From: Nothopassalora personata
Lineage: Eukaryota > Ascomycota > Dothideomycetes > Mycosphaerellales > Mycosphaerellaceae
DNA length: 64,000 nucleotides
NCBI GenBank assembly: GCA_033816765.1
Contig: CM066291.1
Location: 1,922,001 to 1,986,000 of the forward strand
Direction: 5' to 3'
Within the stretch, counting starts at the first letter, position 1. Every line of letters begins with the position of its first letter. The position numbers and the translations under genes are program-made. Shown here in pieces: positions 21,708 to 58,025 of the stretch. The notes beneath the pieces were generated by a model, which did no database searches, had not been told where the DNA came from, and was given only the letters and a program-made list of their open reading frames with translations.

Positions 21708-21904
21708 TGTAAGGGGCAGCCTAGTGGCTAACCCCTACATATAGCCTTGTATGTAACATGCGGTCGCGACCGGCTGCTAAGCCGCACGTAACACGCATAA
21801 GTACACCTTACGACGCGCGATGCGTCTTGAATAAAAGGCAAGAATTAGTTCATCTACGACTAGTAGGTCGTGGGCGTGCTATACATTGCGACATCCCCTT
21901 AACA
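21708..21904 (+). repeat. 5' LTR of H2 (197 bp)
   Basis: TGTAAGGGGCAGCC to CCCCTTAACA. AAGAATTAG at 21840-21848 is the reverse complement of CTAATTCTT at 21908-21916, three bases past the LTR end. This is a self-primer pair. Confidence 0.93.
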
Positions 21905-27645: not shown

Positions 27646-28583
27646 TTAGTTGTCGTCACGTAGTAACTTAGGTAAGAATGCCTAGTCGGCGGCGGTAGTG
27701 TCGATATTCTACGCCTATAGGAACTGGGACTACGGTTAGTAGGGTACACGTAGGCGAGGAACATACGACTTACGGCGCGGCCGAGTTCGAATAGCCTATT
27801 AAGGGCGCGGTTCTGCTCCTACTAGAGCGCGAGGGCTTCGGCGGCGGGGGCGGCGGCAGTAGTAGCGGCGGCGGCGGAGGTACGTATACGGGTCTCCCCG
27901 GCACGCTTATGCTTATAGGCATTGAACTGCCTAATAGCCTATAGGAAGGGTTAGCCGAAGCATAGGGGACGCACTAGAGCCCTCCTCCGCGAGTAGTAGT
28001 CGACTCGCACGAGCGAAGTAGCGACTTACCTCCTTAATGTCGTTACCTAGCTAGGCACATAGGCGGATCTGCTCTACTAGCTCCTACTACTAGAGGTCTG
28101 TAGGCGCCTAGCCTATTATAGCCGTAAGGAAGTCGCGCTAGGACCGCGCGGCGCGTAGGCGGCTCACTAGCGAGGCGATAGCGTAGCTAGTATTAGGTAC
28201 GTAGCTATGTTTACTGCGCCTACAGCGGCTACACTTCTTTAGGAGCTCGCCGGTAGTAACACTATTACAGTCATCGGCCTCGTCTAGCAAGTAGTTAGCA
28301 TGCGAATCGTAGGCGACGCGCGTAGAGACTTACCCCTAACGAAGTACGGGAGGTACCGTATGTATATGTTAATTCTCTACGAGAGCTTAGTAGCTAGCGA
28401 GGGCGTTAGTAGCTACGAGGGTAATGCTAGTCGCTTGCGACCACTAGGCGTTCTAGGGGCGTCGCGCACTAGAGCCGCCTAGCGGCGCTCGTCTTCTACG
28501 GCGCTAGTAGTACTATCGCTACTAGTACTACTAGAGGAGGCGGAGCGGCTAGAGAATGGCGGCGAGGAGGGCACGGTAGACAT
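27646..28583 (-). pseudogene. Antisense four-exon Zn2Cys6-type gene of H2
   Basis: Minus-strand gene between H2 pol and the 3' LTR. Exons are 28334-28583, 28030-28283, 27774-27938 and 27646-27714 (250, 254, 165 and 69 nt, 245 codons plus stop). Introns are 50, 91 and 59 nt. Each starts GTAAGT, has a CTAAC branch site (TACTAAC in the third) and ends TAG (CAG before RIP). The protein has a Ser-rich N terminus, then a motif Y-x2-Y-x8-C-x11-C-x2-C-x6-Y across intron 1. The Tyr codons TAC are the RIP products of TGC, so six Cys are inferred, the pattern of fungal Zn2Cys6 DNA-binding domains. A Gln/Arg-rich helical part follows. TAG codons now break it. Element I has the same gene at 35137-36020. 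Confidence 0.8.
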
Positions 28584-28870
28584 AATGATAATGATAATGC
28601 TAGCGAGGCGCTTACGATAATAGTGCGGTGCGGGTGCGTAGTAGTAGTGTAGCGAAGGTAATGAGCTAGGGAGCGTACTAAGAAAGGGCTAGGTTAGGCT
28701 AGAGTTTTATGCCCCTAACTAGCTACGTCGGTATAGCAACTAAGCCTCACTCACCTATACCTATATAACGACACGTACGTAACCCGTATATGGGCCGTAT
28801 AGCAACTATAGTTCTAGAAGTCCATAGGAGCCTCTACGTAGCAACTAGCGAGCTAAGGACAGCTCGCACG

Positions 28871-28884
28871 GGAGGGGAGGCAAT
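28871..28884 (+). promoter_or_regulatory. Polypurine tract of H2
   Basis: GGAGGGGAGGCAAT directly before the 3' LTR; plus-strand primer site. Confidence 0.7.
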
Positions 28885-29081
28885 TGTAAGGGGCAGCCTA
28901 GTAGCTAACCCCTACATGTAGCCTTACATGTAACATGCGGTCGCGACCGGCTACTAAGCCGCACGTGACACGCATGAGTACACCTTACGACGCGCAATGC
29001 GTCTTGAACAAAAGGCAAGAATTAGTTTATCTACGACTAGCAGGTCGTGGGCGTGCTATATATTGCGACATCCCCTTAACA
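28885..29081 (+). repeat. 3' LTR of H2 (197 bp)
   Basis: Same length and ends as the 5' LTR, with a handful of C/T and G/A differences from RIP. Followed by target-site duplication AACGA and the rest of A2 integrase. Confidence 0.94.
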
Positions 29082-30223
29082 AACGAAATAAGGCTACGAG
29101 ACATATAAAATACGGTTACCTATAGTTTAGGATACTACCGACAAAACTATAGGACGAAGTTACAATAGACTTTATTACGAAACTCCTACCGTTAAGGGAT
29201 TAAGTTACGAAATAACTATACGACATAATACTAGTTATAGTTAATAGACTTACGAAATACGCACACTTTATTCCTATATTAGAAACATACAATGTAGAGT
29301 AGCTCGGATACCTCGTACTAGATAGACTTATCCGATACTACGGATTCCCTTAAGCGTTTATAACGGACAGGGATAAGCTATTTACATTAAACTACTAGAA
29401 GACGCTTATAGGAACAATCGGAATTAAACATAAGCTATTAATAGCATATTATCCGGAGATAGACGGATAAACCGAAAGAACGAACTAAACGCTAGAACAA
29501 TACCTACGACACTATATTAACTACGTATAAGACAACTAGGTTTTATTACTACTAATAGCGTAGATTGTACTAAACAACTATAAATTAGAGACAACTTTAA
29601 CGACACTATTCTATATAAACTTTAGTAAAGATCCTAACCTATTCGGAACACCTAGATCCTACCTATAAGCTAAAAGAGCAATTGTAACGACGGATACTCT
29701 TAAGGAAGTATATAAAGAAACACGTAAGGCGATTAAAGATGCATAATATAAACTGTCTTAATAACGGCAAGACACGAGAAAAATGCTACCTCTACTAAAA
29801 GAGGGGGATAAGGTCTATCTTCTTATAAAAAACTTAAGAATAAGAAGATAGATTAAGAAACTAGATTATGTTAAGTTCGGACTATTTTCTATCGATAAAG
29901 TGATAGGACTAGTTAACTACCGTCTACGACTACTACCCGACGCTAAAATCCACCTAGTCTTCTATATTTCTAAGTTAGAACTAGCGGACGCCGAAACACC
30001 TTACTAAGAGAGCTTATATTTCGAGCCGGAAGTAGAGAACGAATTCGAAGTTAGAAGAATCCTAGATAGAAGAGGTTAGCGATACCTTATTAAGTAGAAA
30101 GGATACGACGAATTAGAAAATACCTAGGAACTAAAAGAACACCTACAGAACTGTTAGTAAAGGATCTAGGAGTACTAAAAACGTACTAGTAGATCGACCT
30201 CCGCTAGAGACTAATCTACTAGA

Positions 30224-30353
30224 AAGCAGTTAAAGTAGGAATCGAACCTACGACCTTAGGATACCTTTAACGAACCTTCGCCTAAGGGTAAGGAGAATTT
30301 ATTAACACATAGGTTATACCCCGACGCTCTAACTACTAAGCTACATAACCGGT
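30224..30353 (-). tRNA. Degraded tRNA-like sequence
   Basis: On the minus strand an A-box-like TAGCTTAGTAGTTAGAGCG is followed 70-80 nt later by a canonical B box and T-arm (GTAGG TTCGATT CCTAC, 5-bp stem). The D stem GCTT/GAGC pairs and the acceptor strands GGTTATG/TTTAACT pair at most positions. An insertion of about 50 nt sits where tRNA introns occur. The anticodon cannot be assigned safely. It could be a damaged nuclear tRNA gene captured by element A, or a tRNA-derived SINE. Confidence 0.4.
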
Positions 30354-30866
30354 TTTAATAAGGGAAACGGAGAACTTATACGAACATATCCCCTACGAAG
30401 AACTAGAGAAGTTAACCGCGTTATTAACAAAGTCGATCGAGGACTATATAGTAGGAGATAGACTAACGGTCGCGTCTATAGTAGGACAATTGACGTCCTT
30501 AATTTCTCCGGAGACCTCTATTTCGGCCTCTAGACACTACGCCTTCTTACGCGCGCGCTCCTCCGCTTAGCGAAGTATCGCTTTATCCCGCATTAACCGC
30601 GCTAACACCTCCGCTAAATCCTCTTTATCCTTCTCGACCTTCTTCCGATACCCGTTACGAGTCTTATCTAGCGATTCCTAGGACAAGTTTACGCATTTCC
30701 GCCCGCGACGAACGTATTCGGAGTAGCGAAGCCGAAAGTTTCCCTCTATAGTAATATAGGAAAGACCGTTCTAGAAACAATAATCGTAGGCTAGATCGAC
30801 GGGACGACCGTACTCGTTTATTTCTTTAGTAAGCCGGAGGCGGTTTTTAGAAGAAGAAGAAGACAT
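30341..30866 (-). pseudogene. Antisense Zn2Cys6-type gene of A2 (dead)
   Basis: Starts at the ATG complementary to 30864-30866 (MSSSSSKNRL) and runs on the minus strand toward A2 pol. It encodes Y-x2-C-x6-Y-x10-Y-x2-Y-x6-C, where each Tyr codon is the RIP product of a Cys codon, i.e. a Zn2Cys6 pattern. The residues after the last Cys (CVNLSWESLDKT) match the intact protein of element D (CVTTSWEALDRT). A charged helical stretch rich in K/E follows, likely a coiled coil. No intron is needed. It is broken by TAG codons; the end at about 30341 is approximate. Confidence 0.7.
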
Positions 30867-30930
30867 CGTTAATAGCTCGATACGAAGGGATATTATATTA
30901 TCTTATATAAGCTTCGAGACGAAGCTAGAC

Positions 30931-30944
30931 TAGAAGGGGGATAG
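30931..30944 (+). promoter_or_regulatory. Polypurine tract of A2
   Basis: TAGAAGGGGGATAG next to the 3' LTR. Confidence 0.75.
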
Positions 30945-31338
30945 TATTACGGTTCGGACATAGCTATAACGGTACGCATAGCTATTAGCTAAGAGGCATT
31001 ACGTACGCTATACGAGATTACTTACTTACTAGTAACCTAGTAATTCGAGATTACTTACTTACTAGTAACCGAGTAATTACGGCTAAGACTAGCAATGTCT
31101 CCTTTATATTTAGGAACGCTAAGAATCTCTTATAGTTTCGATACGTTTAACTTACTATTTAATATTACTATTTAGAATACACTATAATATAACCTCTACC
31201 TTACTACTACTTAGTCTTTATAAGATAAGACAGCTACTACTTTATTACTTTCCCTCGACTTCCTATCGACCCGAGAATAAACCCGATTAAGCTTGTCTTC
31301 TTAACTTGTAATATTATTAGGTTATACTAAACCTAATA
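30945..31338 (+). repeat. 3' LTR of A2 (394 bp, different U3)
   Basis: TATTACGG to CCTAATA. The R/U5 half matches the other family-A LTRs, but U3 has a duplicated unit CGAGATTACTTACTTACTAG instead of the TTAGACTAATTAGA units of the 5' LTR. LTRs of one insertion are identical at birth, so this LTR comes from another subfamily copy. Confidence 0.85.
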
Positions 31339-31340
31339 TA

Positions 31341-33520
31341 GACTCCGGAGCTCCCTACCTTTTTAGAGACGGACTATAGCGGCTTTACGCTTAGAGGCGC
31401 CCTCCTATAAGAAAAGGACGGAGTCGTAAAACTAGTAGGATTCTACTCGAAGAAACTTAATAAGGCTAAGATTAACTACGACATTTACGATAAGGAGATA
31501 CTCGCGGTAGTGTCTTGTCTTAAGGAATAGGCTCCCGAGTTAAAAACATATAGACCCTTTATAATCTAGACGGACTATAAGAACCTAGAATACTTTATAA
31601 CGAAGAGATAGCTTTCTAAACGGTAGATCCGGTAGGTTAAGGAAGTTGTAGAATTCTAGTTTTCACTAGTATATAGGCCGGGCACCGAGGCGATTATGCC
31701 GGACGCCCTTTCTCGAAGGGGGTAGGACACGCTTAGGTAGGACGATAAGTTATTACGGTACCGTAGGTTTCTTAAACCGGACATCGTAAAGAATTAGCCG
31801 GGCTTAAAGGGGGGAAGCGAGGTAGTAGTAGACGCTAGCTCTACTATAAAGGTTTCGTTAGTACAAATCTTAGCTACGTAGTTCGAAGGACTATCCGCCG
31901 TAGAAGAGGCGGATTTACCGGGCGCACTACTAGGACCCTTCTAAGACTAAGAGCTAAACGACCTCTAGGAAAGAACGATCGAGAAGAATAGTACATTCTA
32001 AGCGGTACACCGCGCAATTAAGGTAGGAGCGCGTTTACTTCCTAGCGAGGTAAAACTTAAGGTATAAGTAGGTAACTATAGTATCGACCGTAACGGGTAT
32101 CTTCGCTACCGCGGTAGGATTTAGGTACCTAGAGCTCCTAGTTCTACGGAGTCCGACTATAAGGAGGCGGACATAGCGATCCTATAGAACGACACCCTTC
32201 GAACTAAGCTAATCTAATCCGTACACGATTTACCGGTATACGGCTACCCTAGCCGGGACTCTATAGTATCGATACTAAGTCGTAACTTCTACTAGCCCCT
32301 ATAGTCTAAGCACGTAAGGTAGTTTTTAAGGAACTATAACTACTACGGTAGGAATAATGTATAGAGGGAATAAAAACACGGCCTCCTATAACCCTTACCG
32401 GTCCCCGACCGATTCTTCTAGGAGATCTCGATAGATTTTATAACGGACATACCCGAGTCGTAAAGGAATACTTACCTCTAGGTAATTAAGGATCGACTAA
32501 GCAAGACCGTCGTTTTAGAAGCGATGTCTACTATAAAGGCCGAGGACTACGCTAAAAGGTTCTTAGACTACTAGGTAAGATACTATAGCCTACCTTAAGC
32601 TATTACGAGTAACCGGGGTACTAACTAGACGAGCACCTTCTAGAGGACCTTCTATCGTTTAACCGGTGTAAAATAGAGGCTTAGCTCCGCTTACTACCTA
32701 TAAACCGACGGAGGCCCGTAACGATTAAACTAGGAAGTCTAGGCTTACCTTCGTAACTATATTAACTATAAGCAGTCCGACTAGAAACGCTAGCTCCCTA
32801 TAGCATAACTTACTCTAAACGCGCGGTATTACGCGGGGCTAGGAATAAGCCCCTTCTTCGCGGTATACGGATACGAGGCACTATTACCCGTTTAGTTATA
32901 ACCGGATCTAAAGACTTCTTAGTTAGACGCCGTGTAACGGGTAACGCTATTCGTAGAAAGGATGTAAAAGATTACGAACCTATATTAGGCGAGTATAGCG
33001 GAAGCTACCTAAAAATAGGAGGACTACGCTAACCGGGATAGGAAGCCCGTACTAATCTATCGTATAGGCGATAAAGTTTAGCTAGATCTACGCAACTATA
33101 TTACTACACAACTAAAGAAGAGCCTCGACTATAGACACGCGAAGTATACGGTAGTAGAAGTAATCTCGCCGTTATCTATACGCTTATCTAGGATCCCCGA
33201 CGGGATCTACCCGGTCTTCTATCCTAACTTACTACGACCTATAAGCTAAGACCCCTTACCTAGATAGGAGATCGATAACAAATAGCCGGACCCTATTATA
33301 ATTAAGTCTTACGAAGAGTAGTAGGTAGAAGAGATCCTTTACGCTAGAACTAAGGTTAGAGGTAGAGGCCGAGTACGCGAAGTCCTAGTGAAATAGACCG
33401 GATACTATAAGCCTATATAGGAACTATTAGGGTACCTCGCGGATATAGTAGCCGCGGATAACTTCGAGAGGAAATATATTAACCTAATAACGCATAACAG
33501 ACCGAAGGAGGTATAGGATA
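31341..33520 (+). pseudogene. J pol, RNase H to chromodomain (dead)
   Basis: RNase H is recognised by ETDYSGFTLRG, then YSKKL and YDIYDKE near 31480 and TDYKNLEYF near 31571. The integrase has a Tyr-substituted zinc region near 32330, DFITDIPES near 32434 and a D-bearing SNRGTNW block near 32610. A chromodomain follows at about 33330-33450. TAG codons in every block. The upstream protease and RT are missing. Confidence 0.8.
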
Positions 33521-33559
33521 TAAAAAGAAGGGGGAAACGATAAAAAGATAAGGGTTACT

Positions 33560-34525
33560 AGGGATTTAGCGTAGACATAGGCGTTTAGGAAAGGGTAGGC
33601 GTTTCTTTTAGGTTAGGGAGTCTTTTAAGGAGATAGAGAGAAGTAAGAAGGTATAGGTAAGTTTAAGAACGTTTTATTTTAGTAGCGTCCGCCGTAAAAG
33701 TAGCGGAGCCCGATCCCTTTAGAGATAGCTATATACTATAATAGCCCGGTCGCGGCCCGCGCGAAAGACGAGGGTGCCTAAAGGCTAGTTAGAGGAGGCC
33801 GAGGCCTAACGTACGCGGCGCTAACCTAGCTAGAGGTCGCGTAGGGCGCCCCCGGGACTAAAGAGTCGGTTAGCGATAGTTTTATAACGGGGCCCGTAGT
33901 ACATACGTCTACCTAAAGGTAAGCTAGGCATTAGCTATAGTACCTATAACCTTAGCGGCGACCGTACTAAAGGAATCGGTAAGCGCGTATAAAGAGGCGG
34001 GGGCCGGGAAAACTTACCGGGAGAGTACGCTAGTACGCTAGAGAGGCTTTAAAGCCTTCTAGGCTTTAAGGACGACGCGGAGCTTAGTACGAGCGTCGTC
34101 GCTAAAAGACCGTAAGCCTATAGAAAAGCCGCGGAGGCCGCCGGGGAGGATACTTACGCGCGGTTCTAGTTAGTAGCGCGGGTCCACTTAGCGTAGGTAG
34201 CGTAGGCAAGCTCCGGCCTAAAACGCGTAGTTAGCGATAATTTTCCTTCGGGGTCCGCGTAGTACATATATGTCCTTATAATACTTACGATTAGTGTTAT
34301 AGGGCTAGTAGGCGCGCGCGGTTGCGCCCTAATAATAATTAGCGGACCCCGATAAGAATATAGCGGAGGCCGGTACTTATATACTAGGAGACGTAGTCTA
34401 CGCTAGTAGAGGCGTAGGGGACGTAGTAGATACGGCGTTAGGCCATTTTATACTACGTTCCGGTTAGAATGCGTCGGTCTCCGTAAGAATTTATTCGGAC
34501 TCACTTAATAGTATTAATAGGAGAT
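33560..34525 (-). pseudogene. Possible antisense zinc-cluster remnant of J
   Basis: Past the chromodomain the minus strand contains two related modules, about 34170-34280 and 33810-33915. Each has an Y-x2-Y or C-x2 start, a KLSLT block and, about 20 residues on, a YAT segment. With Tyr read back as Cys the first gives paired C-x2-C motifs. The position matches the antisense genes of H2, I and A2. Introns and ends are not resolved, and the rest of the gene would lie in 41776-42250. Confidence 0.35.
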
Positions 34526-34723
34526 TGTAAGGGCCGTAAGGCTATAAGGGGATGTCGTAATATATAGCACGCCTACGATCTTCTAATCGTAGATGAACTA
34601 AAGCTTACTTTCTTCTATAGACGCTATGCGCGTCTCCTAGTATACGTATACGCGTTACGTGCGGTATGCTAAGCCGGGTATAGCCGCATTATATGTAAGG
34701 GTTAGCTATAGGCTACCCTTATA
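34526..34723 (-). repeat. 3' LTR of element I (198 bp)
   Basis: TGTAAGGGCC to CCCTTATA on the plus strand, preceded by target-site GAGAT. Confidence 0.93.
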
Positions 34724-35136
34724 ACTACCTCCCTTCTAGGACGAGCTGCCCTTAGCTCGCGGCTTTAGGAGGTTTCTATATAAGTGATCTATCTACTTCT
34801 CGTAGATTCCGTTACTATACGACCCGCCTACGGGTCTCGTACGTGTCGTTATTATAGTATAGGTAGGTATAAAGTTATAGTTACCGGGTTAACTAACTCG
34901 GGGGTTTAAGAAGCGTACCCTCTTCCTCCTTTTCCTTCTTTTTCCTTATACTACGTTCTCGTAGCGCACTATACCCGCACTACTAGCAATCTACTAGCTC
35001 CTCGCTAGCGACTACCTAGCGACCCGCTAGTACTACTATAGCTTTAGAGGAAGCTATCTAAGACTAGCTCCGCTAGGAGGCCCTTATAGGGGGCCTATTA
35101 GCACTACTAACACTATTACTAGTACTACGAGCATAG

Positions 35137-36020
35137 ATGTCTAGCGCGCTCGGCGTACTAGATACGCTAGCGAAGCGTAAGTTTAGCGCGCTAGGGCCGT
35201 AGACCCCTAAGTCCTTACTAGCTAGGCGCCTAGGTACTAACATTAAGATATGTATACGTTATCTACTATACTTCGTAGCTAGTAAGTATTCGCTACGCTC
35301 TTTACTTACGATACGCTTACTAATAGTATAGTAGACGAGTAGGATACGTGTAATAGTGTTACTACCGGCGAGTTACTTAAGAAGTATAGGCGCTATAGAG
35401 ACATTAGGCACCCCTACGTTAGTAACACTAGCGTCGCTATCGCGTAGCTAGTAGCTCGCCTACGCGCCGCTCGCGCCTAGCGCGATAAGCTTATCTAGGG
35501 GCTTAGTAACCCTATTACTAAATAAGAGTAGGATGCTCTAGACTAGTAGTACGAGCTCTATACCTAGCTAGGCGAGTAGATCCTAGAGGTAAGTACTACG
35601 CCTCGCTAGCGCTCCCTACGCTCGCCGTATACGGCGTACTATCGCTCCCTATATAAATCGGCTAACCTCCTCCTAGGCTAAGAGGCAGTTCTCTACCTAT
35701 AAGAATAAGCGTATAGGGGACACCCGCGTACGCTTCGCCGGCGCCTCTACTACTACTACCCCCTCCTCCGCCGCCGCTACTACGTCCGTAGTTCTATAGT
35801 AAGAGTAGAATAGGGCCCTTAATAGGCTCTTCGAGCTCGGCCGTACTATAAGTACTATACGTATCGCATACGTGTCCTATGCTAACCGTAGTTATAGTTC
35901 CTATAGGCTAGAAACATCGACACTACTACGGCCGATAGGGCCTTCTTACTACTAGCCCTACGGGACGAGTATAATAAGGAGGATGATAAGGAGGATAATA
36001 AGGAGGATAATAACGAGTAA
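35137..36020 (+). pseudogene. Antisense four-exon Zn2Cys6-type gene of element I
   Basis: Opposite in strand to the gag-pol of I. Exons: about 35137-35281 (start uncertain, N terminus degraded), 35335-35588, 35677-35847 and 35907-36020. Exon 2 is 254 nt, exactly as in H2. Introns of 53, 88 and 59 nt start GTAAGT, GTAAGT and ATAAGT (RIP of GTAAGT), with GCTAAC-like branch sites and TAG acceptors. The frame is preserved across all three. The motif Y-x2-Y-x8-C-x11-Y-x2-Y-x6-Y has the same spacing as in H2, with Tyr replacing Cys by TG to TA change. The C terminus is a D/N/K/E-rich tail ending NNE-stop. Broken by TAG codons. Confidence 0.78.
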
Positions 36021-36289
36021 TCGGGCGCTCTGCGTATATTAGCCGCCTATTACGCGCCTATGTTCTGTCTACGTAGCGCCGTAGTGCGCCTATAAAAGTT
36101 TATTTTTAAAATAAATACTCTTCTCTCTACTCTTCTCTCTCCTCACCTCCCTCTCTAATGTTATTACTGTCGGGGGTGTTTACTCGACTAAGTAAGCGAG
36201 CCTTTTAGTCCGATAGAAGACACTATAGGTTAGTGTCTTCTATGCTAGTTATAGCTAAGTTTACTATCGGGGGTAGAGGTCCTTATATC

Positions 36290-39200
36290 TAGCTACCGAA
36301 GGGTTGAGGTCTAAATGCATAACCTATACCCTTATTTTAGCGCCTTATACTGCCTTCGTAGGTACCTTATATTCGACTACTATACGCGTAGCCTTCGTAG
36401 ATCCTTCCGCCGGCTTATACCATCTTTACTAACGCCTTATATTCGGCTACTATACGCGTAGCATTCGCGAGTCCTTATACTAGCTCCTAGCTGTTATACT
36501 CTTCTAGCTAGCCCTTCTATCGCACTAGGTACTACACTTTACCCTTATACTTACGCTTTCCTAGTACTACCTCTACTTTATATTCCCCGTCCTTATTAGC
36601 GAGGGCTATAGTACCTCTATCCTTCTCGCTACCCGCGTACGGCTCAAGGAGGGATACATAGAATACATCATAAATTCTTAAGTCGGCTAGTAGTACTAGG
36701 CGGTACGCCTACGAACCGATAGCGTCGATAATGCGGTACGGTCTAATAAACTTCGGACCTATCTTCTTCTTCGGTAATACTAACCTTAGGTTCTTTGTAG
36801 ATAATAAGACTATGTCGCCTACGCAATAGCTCTTAGCCTTATAAGTCTTATTATAGTAGCGAGTCTAATTGGCTACTACGATTTCCTAACGCTTCGTAAG
36901 CGTAGCGCGCATCTCTCGTATACGGTTAACTAAGTCTACCGCTACTAGTACCTCCCCTTCCCGGATCTTGCCTCGAGATCCTATAGGTATTAGGGTAATC
37001 TTAGGTCTCTAACTATACGCTATTTCGAATAGGCTTATGCGTAGCGTAGGGTAGACGCTATTATTATATGCGAATTTAGTAATAGCTAGCTACTTAGCCT
37101 ACTCTATCTAGTTCTCGCTATAGTAATAACGAAGGTACTGTTCTAAGGTTTAGTTTACCCTCTTAGTCTAGCCGTTAGTCTAAGGGTAGAAAGCTATAGA
37201 TAGCTTACGCTTTACCTACGCCTCGAAGTAGAAGTCACTCTAGAACTTGCTCGTAAATACTAACCCGCGGTTACTTACTATACCCGCTAGCATACTATAA
37301 TACCGCACGACTTCGTCTCGTAAGATCCTCGTAAGCTCCGCCGCTATATATATCTTAGTCGTAGGAATGTATAAGTTCATTTTAGAGTAGCGGTCGACGA
37401 TTACTAGGATCGCATTATATACGCATTCTCCTCGCTTACTTAGCGGTAGGTCCGTAATGAAATCTATAGTGATTTCCTACTATGGACTGTCTAGCCTAGG
37501 TAGTAGCTATAGCTCGCCGTAGGGTCGATAGCGCCTTGCCTTCGAGGTCTAATAAGCCCTATAGTTTCTAACATACTCCCTTACATCCTTACTAAGTAAT
37601 TCCTACTAGTAATAACGTCGTAGTAGCTCTTTAGTCTTTACCTTACTAAAGTACCCTACTAGTAGGTCGTTATAATGCATGTAGAGTAGTTATGCTCTTA
37701 CTACATAGTCTTCGGGTACTATAATCGCGTTCCCGCGATAGACTAACCCGTCTTTTATATACTAGTCCTTAGCGCCCCCTTCGCTAGGCGCCTACGATAA
37801 GTATACGACGCACCTATCGTCTCTCCCCTATAGATTTTTATTAGTAGTGTAAGTAGTTCACCTAGGCCGCCCTACATTATTATAGCGCACACTCTCGCTA
37901 GTAGCGATCGGGTCCCCTACGGCTCGTAGGCTCCTACTACTATTATCGTCGCCTTATCCTATATCTTCTCGTAGGTAGCGGTTACGCGCCTTACTATAGG
38001 CTCGTCCTCTCTTAATAGGGATTCCTTCTAGAAAGACAGCTTACTTTATAGCGTAGGAAGTAAGTTCGACGTCTACTACGCTACGCGTACGTAGTTACTA
38101 CGTCGCGATAGCGCATCGGCTAGGTTACTCTTCCCCGACCTATACTCTACTACGAAGTCGAAAGATTATAGAAACGTCGCCTATCGAGCTTACCTCCCGT
38201 TTAGCTACTTTACTGTTATAAAACCCTATAGGTTCGTATAGTCGACTAGTACCTAAACCGTATACGATGCGCCTTCGAGGTACGGTCGCTAATACTTAAA
38301 TGCCTCTACTACTACTAGTAGCTCTTAGTTATAGGTCTTATAATTGCACTCGGTAGGTATTATCTTACGAGAATAGAAGGCAATTAGATACTACTTAGTC
38401 CTAAACAGCTAAGAGATAATACCTACAATCGTAAAACCTAAGGCATCCGTCTTAACCCTCGTACGTAACGAAGGATCGAAGTGCCTTAGGATAGGTGCTC
38501 CGAGGAACCTAGCTTTTAGCCGTTAGAACGCTTACTCCTCGTAAGCGGACTACATAAGAGGCCCCTACTTCTTACTATTCTTACATCCCTTTAGTAGGTC
38601 TATTAATAGCTTTGCAATCCTCGAGTACCCTTCGATAAAGCGCCTATAGAAGTTATAGAATCCTAGGAAGGATTAAACCTTATAAAAACTTATAGGCGTA
38701 GGTAATTCCTCGATTACGGCTACCCTACTCCTATCTATCGATACGCCTACGACACTTACGATAAATCCTAGGAACTCGGTATTCTCCTAGAAGAAGCTAT
38801 ACTTCTTTAGGTTCGTAAATAGGGCGAACTTTCGTAGCCTCTCTAGTACCGCGCGTACGGCTCGTACGTGCTCCTTACGTGTTACGCTATAGATAAGGAT
38901 GTTATCTAGGTAGACTACGTAGATATTATCTACTAACTTAGTAAGGGCCTTATTAATGTACCCCTAAAAGGTAGCTAGTACGTTAGTTAACCTAAAAGGC
39001 ATAACTAAGTACTCGTAGTAACCGTATCGCGTGCGAAACGTAGTCTTCTACTCGTCTCCTCGCTTAATAGGAATACGGTAGTAGGCATCCTATAGGTCGA
39101 TTATAGTAAAGAGCCTAGCGCCCTATAGCCTATCTAAGGTCTTACTAATTAGGGGCAGTAGGTACCGGTTCTTTACTATAATCTCATTTAGGCCTCTATA

Positions 39201-40400
39201 ATCTACATAGAGCCTAAGAGTGCTATTCTTCTTTAGTACGAATAGGATAGGCGCACCCGCCTCGCTTACGGATCGCCTAATCTACCCCTTCTCTATTGCT
39301 TACGTAAGGTACTCCTTTAAGGCCTCTAGCTTAGTTAAGGACTAGTAGTATAGCGGCTTAAAAGGGGGTTTCTTTCCTTTAACGAGATTAATCGCATACT
39401 TAACCCCGTCAGGCATCTTACGCTTCGCCTACTTATTAGGTGCGTATACATCTTAGAAGTCTATAAATTCTTTAGGCTACGAGGGGCCTGTTACGGAACA
39501 GTGTTATCGGTGCAAATGGTTGGACAACGGAGCAGGAAACCAGACGAAGCTGCAGACATGGATGCCTGGGGAGTCACGTGACAGAGCGATCAGGACTGAT
39601 CGGTCCTGATCACTCTTGATCAGTTGATCAGACTCGCTCAGGGCAGAGCAGGACAGATCACGCCAAGACATGGCACTATATAGACGACGCTTCTTTACGA
39701 GTAGATAGGAGCCTCGTGCTCAACTCATTTTAAGTATACACCATATACTGTTTGGAACCACTACCTTCATAACTGATTGAGACATCCCTGCAAAGATCCA
39801 AGCCCGAGTTGTGATAACGTACAGCGGTTCCTAACAGGGCCCTCTCCTTCGGGTACTACTATAGTAATAGCCCGAACACTTATCGCATAAACCTACTTTA
39901 AGCTCTCGAGATCCTTAAGGAACTCGCGTACGTTACGCTACTAAATCGTAGGCGTCTCTATACCGTAGTACTACTAGTTATCCTTATCGGCCTTTACTAT
40001 CCGATTACGATACCGCTAGGGTCTACCTAAAATAACTAACGGCCTACCTATAGGCGCTACATAGTAGATAGCGTCGCTTACGCGCTCTACTCCTACATCG
40101 TTAGCTAGTCGCACGCGAACCGTATAGGCGCCGTAGTAATGCCCCTAGTCCTACGTATACGACTCTAGATTTAGAAGCTTTATACTACTAATAGGCTACA
40201 TCTAGTGTCGGAGTACATACTCGTACGATACTAAGCTTAAATCTACACCGTTATCTAGAAGAAACGTAGCCTCGCGAAACCCCTTACGCGTCTCGACGGC
40301 GCCTCGTAAGTAACGCGCTAGACTCGTATCGACTTGCCTTAAGGGGTCTATATAGAAACTCGGACTTAGGAGCGACCCTTACCTAGTCCTCTACCTTTTC
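36290..40400 (-). pseudogene. pol of element I, split by solo LTR G3
   Basis: On the minus strand, right to left: protease (about 40330-40000); RT, with solo LTR G3 interrupting it at 39489-39836 and YLDN near 38905; RNase H (about 38500-38100); integrase (about 37700-36900); and a chromodomain at about 36580-36470 (EYKVEVVLGKRK, then YLVRWKG). TAG codons disrupt each domain. Homologous to H2 pol throughout. Confidence 0.82.
39489..39836 (+). repeat. Solo LTR G3 (348 bp) in element I
   Basis: TGTTACGG to CTAACA, target-site duplication GGGCC (39484-39488 and 39837-39841). Unmutated. U3 has CTGATCGGTCCTGATCA-type palindromic units (about 39585-39640). The core and the 3' part are nearly identical to G1. 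Confidence 0.95.
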
Positions 40401-41560
40401 CCTATTTGCCCTTCTTAGTTAAAGCCTCGACAGTTTCTAACCTACGAACCGCTTACGCGTCGCGGTCTTTCTATAGGTGTCTATTCCGGCACTCCGTCTT
40501 ATAGTAACCCTTCCTACCGTAGCCGTAGTACTCTACTTTCGACTTCTAGCTAGTTAAAGACGAGCTACCGGCGTCTCGCTACTAACTCGTACCCGAGGCG
40601 CCCGGTACTTAACTCTACTTTTATTACTTTAGGCGATCGGCCCGCTTATGTACGCCCTTAGCTTTACGCTTACGACGTACATACTACCCGCGGTCGTGCC
40701 CTCCGCTACTACCTCGGCGCTCGGTACTTTCGATACGCGAGGCTAGGACTACTAGGTCTTCTCTAGTCGTGGGGATATTATAGTAGCTAACGATAGCGGA
40801 CCGTAAGCGAGGCGTAAGCTTCGCTAGTAGGTACCGTATACGTTACGCTTCCGAGTAGTTACCTAACTAGTCCTCTATAACATCTAGCTCAGTCGCGAAC
40901 TGCCGCGCTATCTAGTTGTCCTTCTATCTTATAACCTCGTACTCTAACATAACGTTAAGTACGCAATTTATAGGATCGCCGTATACATCTCGGTAGAACT
41001 CCTTAAAGTCCTAGTATATATACCCTACGAGGTTAACGGCGCTATAGTTAGTATATTATCGCTCGCTTACCTCTCCGCTAAGGTACATAACCCTATATAG
41101 GACCTTTAATTCGTCTATCGCGTACATAGTGCCTAAGAGGGCAAAGATAAGTAAGAGCTCCCGAAGGAATACCCTTACCTTCCTTATTAAATCCCCTCTA
41201 AAAGGCGTCGGCTCTTTTAGACGCGGTCGCGTCGTATACGCTACGGCCGCGCCTCGTACTATAATATTATCGTTAGTAGTTATAGAGATAGAGGTAGGGG
41301 TTATAGTAGGGAGGTAATCTTCTCTCCTCCCTCCTATACGCTCTAGAGGCGGTGCGCTTATAGCGCGTAAGATCTCTAGCCGCTCGATCTCCCTCTATAT
41401 CTCTTACTCTTTAATCTTAGCCCGTAAGGCCTCTCTTCTCGTAACTAAGGCTACACGACGCGCCTACTACTATACTCTAGGGCTTAGGGGCGGCGTAGGC
41501 GACTCGCCATCGTATACGTCGCGATTAGGCTCTATAGCGTATATAGATTGTAACGAAGGG
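40400..41560 (-). pseudogene. gag of element I (dead)
   Basis: Minus-strand gag. Its zinc knuckle at about 40480-40540 reads with Tyr in place of Cys. The N-terminal region at 40950-41470 matches H1 and H2 gag. A remnant proline/threonine-rich spacer contains TAG codons. No intact frame. Confidence 0.65.
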
Positions 41561-41572
41561 AAGCTTTAGAAC

Positions 41573-41770
41573 TATAAGGGCCGTAAGGCTATAAGGGGAT
41601 ATCGTAATGTATAGCACGCCTACGATCTTCTAATCGTAGATGAACTAAAGCTTACTTTCTTCTATAGACGCTATACGCGTCTTCTAGTGTACGTATACGC
41701 GTTACGTGCGGTATACTAAGCCGGGCATAGCCGCATTACATATAAGGGTTAGCTATAGGCTACCCTTATA
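41573..41770 (-). repeat. 5' LTR of element I (198 bp)
   Basis: TATAAGGGCC to CCCTTATA. On the plus strand CTAAAGCTT (41645-41653) in the LTR pairs with AAGCTTTAG (41561-41569), three bases inside the element. This is the same self-primer geometry as H2 with a different sequence. Confidence 0.93.
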
Positions 41771-42250
41771 GAGATATAGTAGTAGTAGTTTCTATTTACG
41801 GCATCTATCTATCGGAACCCGTAGGGAAAACGTCGGCTCCCTAAGCGATAGGTATAAGATACGTAACCGTATACCCCTAAGGCTAAAGACGCTTAGCTAG
41901 GGGGAGGGGGAGGGGCGACTTACGCTTACGGTAGGTAATAAGGAAAAGAGAGAAAGAAAAAGAGAACGAGAACCTAAAGATATATTCTAGGTTCCTATTA
42001 TTTATATATAACAATAGCTATTGTTACTTATTAGACAATAGTAAACCTTACACTTACCTAGGCGATAATACTTCGCCTCGACGTCGGCGGGGCTAGATAA
42101 TAAGGAAGAGTAGCTCGGGCACTTCCTATTACGAGCCTAATAAAAACAGCTAGGACAATAGGCTCTAGGTAGGACAATAGGGAGCACCGGCGTAAATACG
42201 CATGCGGCCGGTATCTATAGGGCGGAGCTAGGGCTAGAGACGGTAAAGGT

Positions 42251-42266
42251 AGAAGGGGGGGGGTAG
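42251..42266 (+). promoter_or_regulatory. Polypurine tract of J
   Basis: AGAAGGGGGGGGGTAG before the J 3' LTR. Confidence 0.75.
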
Positions 42267-42471
42267 TATAAGGGGCGGGCCCCTGTTTCTTAGCATAGGC
42301 TACGCCTATGCGTTCGGATTACTTTCCGACACCTTTTCTTCGGATAGCGTGTAACTTCCCCTTTCTTCTATATCGAACTTATTATAAACTTTATAGAACT
42401 TTAGTATATACGTCGTTTACCCGTAATAGTAGGCGTACTATATAATACGACATCTCCTTATAGTTCTTATA
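42267..42471 (+). repeat. 3' LTR of J
   Basis: Starts TATAAGGGGCGGG and ends near CTTATA. Its last part (ACATCTCCTTATA) matches the ends of H1, H2 and I LTRs. The exact right end is uncertain by about 9 bp. Confidence 0.65.
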
Positions 42472-42520
42472 CTACTAGTAGTACTAGTAAGCTTAATATA
42501 CTATATATATCTATAATAAC

Positions 42521-42767
42521 TGTAAAGTTGAGACCTTATAGGATACGTAGTTAGTAGCGGAGTAGAGTAAGAGATTAATCTTTAACTAGCTAATAGCTAC
42601 AGGGCATGTAGCAATATATTAGGAACTAATGCGTTGATTGTGTTAGATGTCTATCTAAGCTAAAGGGGAGAGAAGGTGTCTTCCGACAAGCTAAGTTATC
42701 GTAGATGCCCTAGGCTATTAGATTATAACCTAACTATTAGCTCCCCTTAAGATGCTACATCTTAACA
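42521..42767 (-). repeat. 3' LTR of copia-2 (247 bp)
   Basis: TGTAAAGTTGAGACC to CATCTTAACA on the plus strand. Next to it, in minus sense, is a purine-rich AAGATAAGTAGGAG, the likely polypurine tract. Confidence 0.94.
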
Positions 42768-44415
42768 CTCCTACTTATCTTACATAGGAGGTTATAGTCT
42801 ACTCTTCTCCTATTAGTAGTATTTAGACCTCTATAATAGGTTAAGCTAGCTTATAAACCTCTAGAAGTGTAGACTAGTCTTTAGCTTTATAAACCTATCT
42901 ACAACTATCTTAGATGTTAGGGTGTACTTAATAGTAATAAGCCTTCTCTACTAAAGTTTCCTAATAGCATTGTAGGCAATGTTAATGTGCTTTAACTTGT
43001 TATAAACATATGCATCCCTTACTAGGGTGAGGGCAGCTTAGTTGTTACCTCTTAATTGGACTAGTCTTAAGTTTAATATAGTCTCCTAGTTTCTAGTAAT
43101 CCTTAGTTAATAGGAACAGTCTCCTACTAACTCTAGACAGTCTATCTCCCTTAGCAGTAAAGCTAGGAATTGGGATTGCTTTGCATATGTATTTATAGCT
43201 ATGTATTTAGCTTCTATTGTAGATGTTACTATAGACTTTTGCTTCTTGCTTATCTAGGAGACTAGTGCCCTATAGAGGAAGAAGACATACCTAAGGATAG
43301 AGACTCTGTCTACTTTGTCCATTGTATAATTAGAGTTATAGTATCTAACTAGGCATCCTTCTCTATGCCTAGAGAAGACAAGGCTAAGATTAGGATATAA
43401 CCTTAGATATCTTATAATCTTCTTTAAAGCCTTTATATAGTAGGTGGATAGGTTACTTATAAATGAGCTTATCCTTCCTAGGGCAAAAGCAATGTCTAGC
43501 CTTGTAATTGTTACTAGCTACATCTATGTACTATTAATACTCTAGTACTCTGCCTTGTTACACCTCTTATCTATGTAGCTTAAAGGTTTAAGAGCCTTAT
43601 AGCTGTCTATAGGTGAGTGTATAGGTGCTGCCTTCTTATAGTTTATCCCTATCTTAGTAAGGTTGTCCCTAATAAAGTGTCCCTAGTTAAGTTTTAGGAT
43701 TCCTCTCCTCCTATCCCTTGTAACTCTTATACTAAGGATCTTTTTAGGTTTACTAAGATCTTTAATCTTAAAGACTTTGCTAAGTTCTCTTTTAAACTAG
43801 AGAACATCTATTAACTTTAGTGTAGCAATTAGAATGTTATCTATATATGTAAGAATTATAATCTCTTTTTCCTTATAAATAAGTAGGCATGGATCCACCT
43901 CTAACTGTATAAATCTAATCTCTCTAAGCTTTAACATATAGAGTTGATTCCAATCTCTAGCTACTTGCTTAAGTCTATATAAGCTTTTAAGGATCTTAAA
44001 CACTATGTTTAGTAGAAGCTTAACTCCTAGTAGTAGTAATATAAAGATGTCTTTATAGAGGGTGCTTTCTATAAACGCATTGTTTACATCCACTTAGTAA
44101 AGATAGAGATCCTTCTTGCATATAATAGCTATAAACACCCTAAGGGTGTCCTATCTAACTATAGGCGCAAATGTCTCTATAAAGTTAATACTAAACTTCT
44201 ATAAAAAGCCCCTTACAACTAGCCTAGCCTTAACCTTTTTAATAGCTCTACTAATGCTTCTTTTAACATTAAAGACGTATCTTAACGTAACTAAGTTTAC
44301 TCCTTTTAGTAGAACAGCATTCTCCTAGGTGTTGTTACTCTATAGAGTATCTAGCTCCTTCTAGATTGCTTCCTTCTAAAGGTGTCCCCATTTCTTATTA
44401 TTTATAGCATCCTTA

Positions 44416-44750
44416 TGTTACGGACACGTCCATTCGCTACGAACAACAAGGGCTCATGCAGGCTGCGAGGCAGCAGGACTGAGGGTGGACGACTCAGATC
44501 GAGACTGAGGCTGAACGACTCAGATCGAGACTGAGGCTGAGCGACTCAGATCAGTCACGCCAAGACATGGCACTATATAGACGACGCTTCTTTACGAGTA
44601 GATAGGAGCCTCGTGCTCAACTCAAATCAACACTCTTGTGTTAAGTTGCAACCTTGTAGTGAACTCTCGTTCACACTACTTTAGAGACATATCGAGGATC
44701 GACACTTCCTAGGCCACCCACGTGACGAGGGACAAGGCCCAACCGCAACA
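44416..44750 (+). repeat. 5' LTR of element D (335 bp)
   Basis: TGTTACGG to CAACCGCAACA. TATATA at 44574-44579. GTGCTCAA at 44613-44620 is complementary to TTGAGCAC at 44753-44760 inside the element. U3 contains CGACTCAGATCGAGACTGAGG-type units about 31 bp long (about 44490-44550). Confidence 0.95.
44574..44579 (+). promoter_or_regulatory. TATA box of element D LTR
   Basis: CACTATATAGACGACG lies in the part of the LTR that is conserved in all five D/G LTR copies. The predicted transcript start (the self-primer GTGCTCAA) is about 39 nt downstream, a fitting distance. Confidence 0.6.
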
Positions 44751-44752
44751 CT

Positions 44753-44760
44753 TTGAGCAC
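44753..44760 (+). promoter_or_regulatory. Self-primer binding site of element D
   Basis: TTGAGCAC, two bases past the 5' LTR, complementary to GTGCTCAA in the same LTR. I see no obvious tRNA 3'-end match here. Confidence 0.6.
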
Positions 44761-44789
44761 CAAAAGCCGCGGGGAGTGCTATCGATTAT

Positions 44790-45779
44790 ATGTCTGGGAG
44801 AGACGCTACCCGGAGTCCGTCACGACAAACGCCACAGTCAACTGGCATCACGGAACGAATGAGCGAAATGTCGATTACAGGAAGCAGCAAGAACAACAAC
44901 ACTCCTATGGGCATGCTGAACCCATTGGACCACCACCGTGCACCTAAGGTGTCCACGCCGGAGACGTTCGACGGGACTAAGGACAAACTGGAGGCTTTTC
45001 AACTGCAGGTTCAGTTGTACCTTCACTTCAACGCACACCAGTTTCAAGGCGAGGCCAGCAAGGTCTTGTACGCCGCATCCTTCCTACGTGGAAAAGCAGC
45101 TAGAGGATTCCGACCATACCTCAAGGACTGGCTCCATAACCAGGGTGAGGGGGAAACACCGAAAACGGAGACTCGAAAAATTTTTCACGACTACGACGAG
45201 TTTGAGACGAAACTCGATGATCTATACGGGATACCTAATGAGGAGGTATACGCCGACCGACATATCCGACAACTTCGACAGACCACTTCTGTAGCGCTAT
45301 ACGCCTCAGAGTTCCAAGGATATGCCGCCGACCTGGAATGGAACGACGCAGCACTGCGATCGCAATTCTACCTCGGACTAAAGGACAATGTCAAAGCTGA
45401 GCTATCCCGAAACGCCAGCGTCGTTACGCTAGGGGCGATGATTAAGGTAGCAAAGGAAATCGACGAAAGGCTCCAGGATTTGAGATACGACCGATTCGTA
45501 CAGCCTGGATACCAGAGACCCGCCGCGGGCGGAAGAGGGGGCTTCAAGGCCAGAAGTCAGGACCCTAGTTACGGAGACCCAATGGAATTGGACGTAACGG
45601 AGCGTAGGACAGGAAGGGGGCTGAAGAGCAAAGGTTCCACCTGCTACGTATGTGGCGAGCAAGGCCACTTTGCAAAGAACTGCAAGAAAAAGAACATGGT
45701 TAGCCGCGAGTTCAACGCAATGATTCGCGAAGAGAATACATACCAGGAATGCGAGAACTTCTTCTCGAAATCTGCCTAG
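44790..45779 (+). CDS. Gag protein of element D (329 aa)
   Basis: Intact Retrotrans_gag family protein. The capsid core lies at about residues 50-230, with the family marks FDGTKDKL, FLRGKAARG and YASEFQGYA. A basic G/R-rich linker follows, then one CCHC zinc knuckle near residues 286-299 (CYVCGEQGHFAKNC, the standard C-x2-C-x4-H-x4-C). It should bind RNA and form particles. It ends with a TAG 113 bp before the end of the convergent antisense gene, and no pol follows. Codons look normal, with no RIP damage. The start at 44790 follows the LTR by 39 bp; an ATG 69 bp downstream is an alternative. Confidence 0.9.
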   Translation: MSGRDATRSPSRQTPQSTGITERMSEMSITGSSKNNNTPMGMLNPLDHHRAPKVSTPETFDGTKDKLEAFQLQVQLYLHFNAHQFQGEASKVLYAASFLRGKAARGFRPYLKDWLHNQGEGETPKTETRKIFHDYDEFETKLDDLYGIPNEEVYADRHIRQLRQTTSVALYASEFQGYAADLEWNDAALRSQFYLGLKDNVKAELSRNASVVTLGAMIKVAKEIDERLQDLRYDRFVQPGYQRPAAGGRGGFKARSQDPSYGDPMELDVTERRTGRGLKSKGSTCYVCGEQGHFAKNCKKKNMVSREFNAMIREENTYQECENFFSKSA

Positions 45780-45892
45780 CAGAAACAACCTGAGGACAGC
45801 AAGGCATCAAACAGCGGCTTCTTGATTTGATGACCTAGGACATAGAAGTCAACATTACGGCATGGACAAATGACTACTGGATACTGGACAAC

Positions 45893-46390
45893 TTACCCGA
45901 CCATGTGACCCGAGGAATCACCCGAAGGACCCGACCACGAGAACGGAGACCCGACGCCGGCAGACTGGAGGTTGGCCTCCAGCTCCTCGAGAGTAGAGGG
46001 GTCACCATCCTCCTCCGACACCTCTTGCGCCATGCACCGCAATTTCTCGTCCGCGCGGCGGCTGTTCTCAGAGAGAACTCGCTCGTTTCTCGTGATACGG
46101 GACTGGAGCGCGGCGAGCTGTTCAAGCAGGGAGTCACGGGCTTTTCGATCCGTTTCCAGCCTGGCGGCTAGTTCCTCCGCTGTTCGGTCAAGCGCCTCCC
46201 AGGAGGTGGTGACGCAGGACCTGCCTGTGCGGACGCAGTGGGCACAAGACGACGACATCCTTAGATCGGAAGAGTATTGGCAGGACCGTTTCAGACGACG
46301 ACAAGTATCACAAGGAACAAGAGCAGGCCACGAATCCGCTAGGATACGAGCAACAAGAGCCTTGCGAGAAAGGGTAGATTTGGAAGACAT
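45893..46390 (-). CDS. Antisense Zn2Cys6 coiled-coil protein of element D (165 aa)
   Basis: Intact minus-strand gene between gag and the 3' LTR. I chose the ATG at 46390 (MSSKSTLSR) because the upstream in-frame ATG at 46510 lies in the LTR. Residues 34-60 have the exact spacing C-x2-C-x6-C-x11-C-x2-C-x6-C of fungal Zn2Cys6 transcription factors (CDTCRRLKRSC and CAHCVRTGRSC). From about residue 70 to 125 a heptad-like charged helix (LAARLETDRKARDSLLEQL) suggests a dimerising coiled coil. An acidic tail ends GHMVG. A nuclear DNA-binding role is inferred from the motif. A2 carries a mutated relative; H2 and I carry a more distant spliced version. Confidence 0.8.
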   Translation of the reverse strand: MSSKSTLSRKALVARILADSWPALVPCDTCRRLKRSCQYSSDLRMSSSCAHCVRTGRSCVTTSWEALDRTAEELAARLETDRKARDSLLEQLAALQSRITRNERVLSENSRRADEKLRCMAQEVSEEDGDPSTLEELEANLQSAGVGSPFSWSGPSGDSSGHMVG

Positions 46391-46476
46391 CCTTTGAAAC
46401 TTGGGGAAGTTAGGAAACGAAGGAGGGGCATTGATTATATAAGACAACGACACGTGATCAATAGGGACATTGATCC

Positions 46477-46492
46477 TAGAGGAGGGAGGTGG
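46477..46492 (+). promoter_or_regulatory. Polypurine tract of element D
   Basis: TAGAGGAGGGAGGTGG directly before the 3' LTR. Confidence 0.8.
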
Positions 46493-46827
46493 TGTTACGG
46501 ACACGTCCATTCGCTACGAACAACAAGGGCTCATGCAGGCTGCGAGGCAGCAGGACTGAGGGTGGACGACTCAGATCGAGACTGAGGCTGAACGACTCAG
46601 ATCGAGACTGAGGCTGAGCGACTCAGATCAGTCACGCCAAGACATGGCACTATATAGACGACGCTTCTTTACGAGTAGATAGGAGCCTCGTGCTCAACTC
46701 AAATCAACACTCTTGTGTTAAGTTGCAACCTTGTAGTGAACTCTCGTTCACACTACTTTAGAGACATATCGAGGATCGACACTTCCTAGGCCACCCACGT
46801 GACGAGGGACAAGGCCCAACCGCAACA
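46493..46827 (+). repeat. 3' LTR of element D (335 bp)
   Basis: I see no difference from the 5' LTR by eye. Followed by target-site CCTTA and the rest of copia-2. Confidence 0.95.
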
Positions 46828-49800: not shown

Positions 49801-50302
49801 TCCTAAGAATTGGGATTTTAGTTCCCCTCTCTTCTCCTTTCTCTTAGTGTAAATCTATAATGAATTGAATGTAATAAAATAAGGTGTATATGCTTTAAAG
49901 TCGTAGCTCACGTCCTACTAAGGCTTTTAGTGTAGAATAGTAAGGTTCGTAGGTATAGATACTAAGGCCTACTTAGTAGGGTAAAGAAAGAGCGGTGTAG
50001 TCTCGGAGCTAGGACACAGGTCTGTCTCTCCTAGTAGAGTTCTAAATGACTTACTTAAAGTCCTTCTTAATAGTATCTCGATGCAGTTCTGCCTATAGAG
50101 TGTCTTTAAGGTATTAGCTTATAGTAAGCCGTATAGAGTCCTTTTCTAGATTACCTATTACTTAGTATTAAACTAAGCTCCTTAATAGGACAGATAGGAT
50201 AGACTTCTACTTCCTAGATGTTTTCTGCTATAATAGCAAGGGATACAAGTAACCTGTACTAATATAGGTTGCTCACTCCTATACAAACCCGGGCTTATAA
50301 CC

Positions 50303-50549
50303 TATAAAGTTGAGACCTTACAGGATACGTAGTTAGTAGCGGAGTAGAGTAAGAGATCAATCTTTAACTAGCTAATAGCCACAGGGCATACAGCAATATA
50401 TTAGGAACCAATGCGTTAATTGTATTAGATGTCTATCTAAGCTAAAGGGGAGAGAAGGTGTCTTCCGACAAGCTAAGTTATCGTGGATGCCTTAGGCTAT
50501 TAGATCACAACCTAACTGTTAGCTCCCCTTAAGATGCTACATCTTAATA
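50303..50549 (-). repeat. 5' LTR of copia-2 (247 bp)
   Basis: TATAAAGTTGAGACC to CATCTTAATA, flanked on the right by target-site ATAAC. The tRNA-Met-half primer site is adjacent at 50288-50302. Confidence 0.94.
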
Positions 50550-50720: not shown

Positions 50721-50904
50721 TGTCACGGGCAGCCCGCGACCCTTCACTGACGATGCGTCGTCCCGGCGGAACCTCGGACCTTCCGCATCGGGTTAGCGCG
50801 GCTTGGCGATGCTTTATCTATCCGCCGCGCCTCGCGCTCCTCTTTCGTAGCTTCGTAGAACAACAACTATCTCATTCGGACCCTATGGTACGCGCGCCCT
50901 TACA
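50721..50904 (+). repeat. 5' LTR of E (184 bp)
   Basis: TGTCACGGGC to GCGCCCTTACA. Contains GCGCCTCGCGCTCCTCTTT, shared in near-identical form with LTR C, probably part of the promoter. GTAGAACAA (50855-50863) is the predicted self-primer. Confidence 0.97.
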
Positions 50905-50906
50905 GT

Positions 50907-50915
50907 TTGTTCTAC
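50907..50915 (+). promoter_or_regulatory. Self-primer binding site of E
   Basis: TTGTTCTAC, just past the 5' LTR, is the reverse complement of GTAGAACAA inside the LTR. In Tf1/sushi elements the 5' end of the RNA primes its own reverse transcription in this way. The 169 bases between the LTR and gag hold no other feature I recognise. Confidence 0.7.
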
Positions 50916-51073
50916 CTCCCTACCCAGATCGCGGATCCAGGTAAGGGACGCGTAACAACAGGAACAGACTCACAGAACCGCGCACGGCGTAGATACAGAA
51001 CTCGCGACTCGCAACATCGCAACAGAGGCAAACGGATTCAGAACACGGAACACGGTAAGGCACTAAGCAACAG

Positions 51074-58020: not shown

Positions 58021-58025
58021 ATCTA

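Follow-up and report, generated by a model that had tools for sequence, protein, structure and literature searches.

A clade of Ty3/gypsy retrotransposons with long terminal repeats (LTRs) in the genome of Nothopassalora personata carries an antisense gene that lies ahead of the 3' LTR, is convergent on gag/pol and probably encodes a DNA-binding regulator that acts on the element as a dimer. It was followed from a 64,000-nucleotide stretch of contig CM066291.1 (positions 1,922,001 to 1,986,000, the window), in which places were assigned here to elements H2, I, A2 and D of the initial annotation, into the whole genome (54.5 Mb, 40 contigs). The antisense genes of the type found in element I are one homologous family, fixed in place and strand and almost always kept, and sequence comparison identifies the gene plus the adjoining U3 region as a 3' module that is swapped among otherwise near-identical elements.

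Element I, at 44416-46827, is an intact LTR element of the gag-only kind; besides gag it has a single gene, a six-cysteine open reading frame (ORF) that is antisense and convergent. Its features are as follows.

44416..44750, plus strand: 5' LTR, starting TGTTACGG; identical to the 3' LTR over 336 bp, 335 bp long by its end motifs.
44757..45779, plus strand: gag ORF, 340 amino acids from stop to stop, with pol absent behind it.
45893..46390, minus strand: antisense regulator-like gene, 165 codons, ATG at 46390 and stop at 45895-45893; a member of alignment A1 (below).
46214..46312, minus strand: six-cysteine cluster of this gene, C-x2-C-x6-C-x11-C-x2-C-x6-C by pattern scan; Zn_clus 20.4 bits, cut-off 21.
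46435..46441, minus strand: putative TATA-like TATATAA 5' of the antisense ATG, read from the sequence.
46456..46475, no strand assigned: inverted repeat GATCAAT-AGGGAC-ATTGATC, 17 nt ahead of the 3' LTR.
46493..46827, plus strand: 3' LTR, paired with 44416..44750.

The gag product is recognised by Pfam as Retrotrans_gag (42.4 bits) and zf-CCHC (26.4 bits), both above cut-off, and the antisense frame is intact, its 3' end lying some 110 bp from that of gag. A 5-bp target-site duplication, CCTTA, is present on both flanks and the uninterrupted site is found in a paralogous stretch near 14074, so that gag and the antisense gene of element I transposed jointly. The surrounding DNA is itself part of a 5.4-kb duplication (12387-17794 and 42724-50547, 96-97% identity), the second copy of which is interrupted by element I.

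The element I protein has 149 matches in the genome (150 scored out of 252 candidates). Ten types were defined from the surroundings of these matches, and in their alignment, A1, all six cysteines are invariant. Four further types (L057-L060) came from the regions downstream of six more reverse-transcriptase score groups, the other two of which (L061 and L062) are without an antisense gene, and five (N1-N5) came from the survey of gag copies described below, giving 19 I-type versions in total. By alignment or by pattern, the six cysteines form two C-x2-C triads in 19/19 types. The second and third cysteines are separated by x6 in most types and by more in F8, A57, A58, N1, N3 and N4; x6 is usual in Zn2Cys6 factors where some I-type versions show C-x2-C-x13 or more-C.

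Position and strand are uniform. The initial annotation had allowed that such ORFs might turn out to lie at random positions or strands, and this is contradicted: in 44/44 fetched loci (many of them near-identical copies of 14 types; L049, which has no antisense gene, is excluded) the gene runs antisense and converges on gag or pol, and its ATG lies 65-145 bp ahead of the LTR start TGTTACGG in 14/14 types. Retention was assessed from the gag of the gag-only elements, present in 121 genome copies at ≥98% identity (121 scored out of 1049 candidates). A stop-free antisense match, drawn from the 94 of 149 element I protein matches left after excluding stop-bearing and autonomous-type ones, lies directly downstream of 84 of these. 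Twenty of the remaining 37 copies were inspected; 17 have intact antisense six-cysteine frames, N1-N5 among them, two carry an F12-type frame interrupted by a single in-frame stop, and in one (L071) the gene is missing. The antisense gene is thus found beside 103 of the 104 gag copies examined out of the 121. Matching 5-bp target-site duplications flank nine of ten gag-only elements with definable ends, none being measurable for F3. At one locus (G000 C12:1355698-1367583), six F4-type gag-plus-antisense units follow one another at a constant spacing of 2056 bp, resembling a tandem array with common LTRs.

The encoded proteins are 141-241 amino acids long, with 23-40% identity across types, and are homologous beyond the cluster as well. 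Purifying selection on the protein is indicated by a ratio of nonsynonymous to synonymous differences (pN/pS) of 0.36-0.41 in F3/F4/F5. None of the 14 types scanned (all except N1-N5) reached the Pfam Zn_clus cut-off of 21 bits, the element I protein scoring best, and no bZIP domain was found in Pfam scans of the antisense proteins. The structure model predicts a Zn2Cys6-like cluster, behind which come a long coiled coil and a short acidic tail. The modelled protein may share the fold of the Zn2Cys6 factors GAL4, HAP1, PUT3, PPR1, LEU3, LAC9 and Pho7, which are its structural matches in a comparison confined to families proposed by Foldseek. The predicted likeness to these factors lies in cluster and coiled coil; they are host genes, whereas the present genes belong to elements and fall below the Pfam cut-off where scanned. 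A short SP-x-x-W motif stands near the C-terminal end of many antisense proteins (LSPxTW in F9- and F11-like types) and is a candidate activation or interaction motif.

Evidence for exchange of the 3' module comes from types that are otherwise closely related. In 15 pairs among six gag-only types (F12, with gag broken in L048, is left out of the gag comparison), gag shows only 0.01-0.16 synonymous substitutions per site (dS), while the proportion of synonymous differences (pS) in the antisense genes is 0.65-0.80 and their amino-acid identity 26-63%. The same holds for the autonomous types F9, F11, A57 and A58 (six pairs), with integrase dS of 0.08-0.18 and antisense genes 30-39% identical. Sliding identity, computed for the gag-only pairs F4-F8, F5-F12 and F5-F8 and for the autonomous pairs, is near-complete up to the end of gag/pol, collapses over the antisense gene and U3, and is near-complete again in R-U5, with the exception of one short 80-93% stretch within the low-identity zone of F9-A58. 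In the regulator tree, gag-only and autonomous carriers are mixed, F8 grouping with A58 (99/99) and F2 standing beside F3/F4/F5; a single clade of gag-only types was considered for this tree and rejected. Saturated synonymous sites beside a near-identical gag indicate a swap of old alleles, not rapid change in place. Gene and U3 are neighbours at the 3' end of the genomic RNA, so that one template switch between co-packaged RNAs, falling between gag/pol and that end, would carry both jointly.

The family extends beyond this genome. The element I protein alone has no match in the protein database at E ≤ 0.01; the ten-sequence A1 profile matches 175 proteins at this threshold among 7996 scored candidates. 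Most are metagenomic. Among the 120 matches listed, four have organism names (Elsinoe, Sporormia, Cercospora and Bathelium, from four orders of Dothideomycetes), and in at least 29 by hand count the longest contig is 6.0-7.5 kb. This is close to the length of the autonomous type F2, which measures 6.87 kb from one outer LTR end to the other, suggesting that these contigs may be whole elements. In viral_contigs, 77 pattern matches included no relative. In the integrase tree, a single clade (100/100) unites the seven pol-bearing I-type elements, and a branch (99/98) splits all eight carriers, including H2, from four non-carriers; the long branch of H2 makes its position unsure. A chromodomain follows the integrase in 4/4 carriers scanned (L027, L044, L055 and L059; Pfam Chromo 55.7-62.9 bits) and is absent in 2/2 non-carriers scanned (L061 and L062). 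The window element at 50721-58027 gives a weaker Chromo match (29.1 bits), yet has no antisense gene. The carriers are best described as chromodomain-bearing Ty3/gypsy LTR elements of one clade, together with gag-only derivatives.

We propose, with somewhat better than even confidence, that the antisense gene would have a promoter of its own, placed between polypurine tract and ATG, from which it is transcribed, and that its product would dimerise via the coiled coil, bind DNA and regulate transcription of the element, with the element's own U3 as the first candidate target. The antisense gene HBZ of human T-cell leukaemia virus type 1 (HTLV-1), a deltaretrovirus, lies near the 3' LTR and encodes a DNA-binding coiled-coil regulator of the bZIP class. 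By analogy, the mode of action may be similar; the likeness is in design only, as HBZ has a bZIP where the I-type protein has a cysteine cluster, and common descent is not claimed.

A more specific and distinctly tentative proposal is that gene and U3 are a cognate regulator-promoter cassette, many regulatory types of which are swapped by template switching, and that gag-only elements are minimal parasites equipped with only a coat protein and a regulator. The U3 regions vary among types, and significantly repeated 7-mers occur in 7/14. In the local-alignment comparison, median U3 z was 5.4 for pairs with at least 50% regulator identity (n=9) versus 0.8 for the 162 others. Similarity of regulators and similarity of U3 regions are not significantly linked, either by k-mers (Mantel p 0.10-0.41) or by local alignment (Mantel p 0.062), which is why the pairing is put forward as a hypothesis only. 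Regulator identity was also not significantly related to R-U5 identity in the gag-only types (rho -0.29, p 0.21). Lambdoid phages exchange immunity regions among themselves; if the cassette proposal is correct, co-resident retrotransposons would be under separate control in a similar manner.

Several sequence features accompany the module. In 14/14 types, against 0.44 expected, a free search found an inverted repeat whose end stands 15-21 nt short of the 3' LTR; the position window of this search was chosen once the result of an earlier one was known. The stem is 5-7 long, the core of the loop is GGGAC or GGAC in most cases, and the arms take at least seven different sequences among types. That earlier hairpin search, with loops of 3-8, found it in 11/14 types, with a shuffle p of 0.15 for F2. 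Counting pairs in one fixed register of the MAFFT alignment gave 28.0% paired, no better than shuffles, and 67.1% when slid by one column; pairing in the fixed register is low because the hairpin registers differ between families. The repeat is possibly an RNA hairpin or a palindromic site adjoining the polypurine tract. CACGTGA is present between the antisense ATG and the LTR in types I, F2, F3, F4 and F5 (e.g. 46449-46456 in I), and CACGTG, possibly a basic helix-loop-helix (bHLH) site, recurs in several U3 regions. In types A59 and A60 (L059 and L060), the first 70-80 U3 bases, from TGTTACGG, are tandemly duplicated.

Alternatively, the antisense protein may bind DNA or chromatin but act on the host, countering silencing or steering integration, in which case its diversity would reflect an arms race. 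Strong antisense-gene diversity beside near-identical gag/pol fits this explanation, as does the non-significant match of regulator and U3. Two observations speak for a target in cis: the gene always adjoins the U3 promoter and is swapped with it, and the divergence extends to synonymous sites, as expected for a swap of old module alleles and not only for rapid protein change. Counted in favour of the host-target explanation is also that the clade has a chromodomain, which could steer integration. On balance we regard a host target as rather unlikely. It is also conceivable, with considerably lower probability, that the antisense transcript itself acts, through antisense or double-stranded RNA, and that the protein is secondary. 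The convergent layout would yield overlapping RNAs, and control at the RNA level has been raised for plant antisense ORFs in a review (PMC7264820). Such a role would hardly account for six cysteines kept at 23-40% identity, the pN/pS of 0.36-0.41 and long open frames in 19 types.

The other window elements with an antisense gene have these features:

21708..21904, plus strand: 5' LTR of element H2, 94% identity to 28885-29081.
27690..28583, minus strand: decayed antisense gene of H2, representing a second type, with approximate boundaries transferred from L055.
27715..27773, minus strand: second, probable intron-like stretch in H2 (GTAAGT...CTAAC...TAG), within a piece absent from L054.
28284..28333, minus strand: predicted 50-nt intron of the H2 antisense gene (GTAAGT...CTAAC...TAG), read from the window and L054.
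28885..29081, plus strand: 3' LTR of H2, paired with 21708-21904.
29253..30177, plus strand: pol (integrase) relic of element D, 83.8% identity to L058 and, from 29283, likewise to L057.
30504..30866, minus strand: decayed antisense homologue of the I-type gene in D; hidden Markov model (HMM) of A1, 44.6 bits, independent E-value 7.3e-14.
31098..31338, plus strand: LTR piece (R-U5-like) at the 3' end of D, 95% identity to window 3859-4099.
34528..34723, minus strand: 3' LTR of element A2, which lies on the minus strand; 95% identity to 41575-41770.
35316..35630, plus strand: decayed antisense gene relic of A2, H2 type, best match; 10 TAG and 1 TAA internal.
41575..41770, minus strand: 5' LTR of A2, paired with 34528-34723.

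The antisense relic of D is also matched by the element I protein (tblastn E 3.5e-7), and its pol relic is about 84% identical to both L057 and L058, which are intact elements. H2 and A2 are related elements, present as inverted repeats 73-93% complementary, and the window antisense genes therefore belong to two lineages, not four or five families. For two further elements of the window, 50721-58027 and 58696-64000, no such antisense gene was seen in the frames read, nor was one seen in their genome counterparts by reverse-transcriptase score, L061 and L062.

The H2/A2 gene is a second, weaker case of an antisense six-cysteine gene, which would be analogous in design. In L054, a sister copy of H2, the frame is open across the canonical 50-nt GTAAGT...CTAAC...TAG intron and encodes the pattern C-x2-C-x11-C-x10-C-x2-C-x6-C; clean loss of the intron in L056 was considered and rejected, the missing 94 and 64 bp being off the splice sites. 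Stop-free matches number 25 of 150 scored in the genome for the H2-type gene and 0 of 150 for its decayed A2-type relative. The I-type HMM matches neither the H2 nor the A2 gene, and hhalign gives a probability of 0.9% for H2 type against I type; neither comparison links the two. The H2-type protein has no database relative and no Pfam match under E 0.1, and codon periodicity is absent from the decay between H2 and A2. The view of the initial annotation that H2, I, A2 and D each place a Zn2Cys6-type gene before the 3' LTR thus holds for the gene itself, intact in I, a homologous relic in D and intron-bearing relics in H2/A2, and is borne out for a shared domain only between I and D.

That annotation also offered a choice between an ancient accessory gene and repeated capture of host transcription factors. 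The former describes the I/D type well, given 19 homologous versions that share six cysteines and keep to one place and strand, one integrase clade for the seven pol-bearing types, and Dothideomycete relatives. Repeated independent captures of host Zn2Cys6 genes are very improbable; the two unlike types, I/D and H2/A2, and the abundance of such genes in the genome (112 Zn_clus matches) would suit them, and two origins are possible given the H2/A2 lineage, but the I-type versions are homologous to one another, outside the cluster too and in the same place and strand, making repeated capture needless for this type, and in a by-eye comparison none of the 112 matches coincides with the 14 representative antisense-gene places. 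Least credible is a functionless frame hitch-hiking with the 3' end, an idea to which the H2/A2 gene, lacking codon periodicity in decay and database relatives, lends something, and which the I type contradicts by 103/104 retention, conserved cysteines, purifying pN/pS and relatives in four named species.

An antisense gene of this kind in a fungus, brtn, was reportedly described by Zhao et al. 2011, Virology 417:248. Antisense genes in this place have already been published for Boty (brtn) and for plant elements (PMC8365987, PMC7264820, PMC4227169, PMC5987419, PMC4522978), brtn lying antisense between pol and the 3' LTR of Boty in Botrytis cinerea / Sclerotinia sclerotiorum (PMC7264820, PMC4227169, PMC8365987). 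The initial annotation knew of no described fungal Zn2Cys6 system of this type; this stands only for the label, since our literature searches found no paper that terms such an antisense gene Zn2Cys6. As far as published descriptions allow comparison, Boty is likewise a Ty3/gypsy element of fungi that has gag, pol and a chromodomain, and its antisense gene lies between pol and the 3' LTR, whereas module exchange, many versions and gag-only carriers go unmentioned for brtn in the accounts available. The plant aORF-3R of Grande, RIRE2, Retand and PvRetro13 is an antisense ORF between pol and the 3' LTR, kept in most copies, its function given as unknown and a regulatory role suggested; no mention of a Zn2Cys6 domain was met, and the word 'zinc' is absent from the main text (PMC7264820). 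The I-type gene resembles it in place, strand and presence in most copies, and differs in belonging to other lineages and another kingdom. Antisense genes at this place were therefore known before; new here are the predicted fold, the 3' exchange and the gag-plus-regulator elements.

Our results describe a retrotransposon antisense gene with a recognisable, model-predicted DNA-binding design, which in non-autonomous elements is the sole gene besides gag. That it varies as a block with the promoter provides a testable hypothesis of retrotransposon self-control, for which 19 natural versions are at hand.

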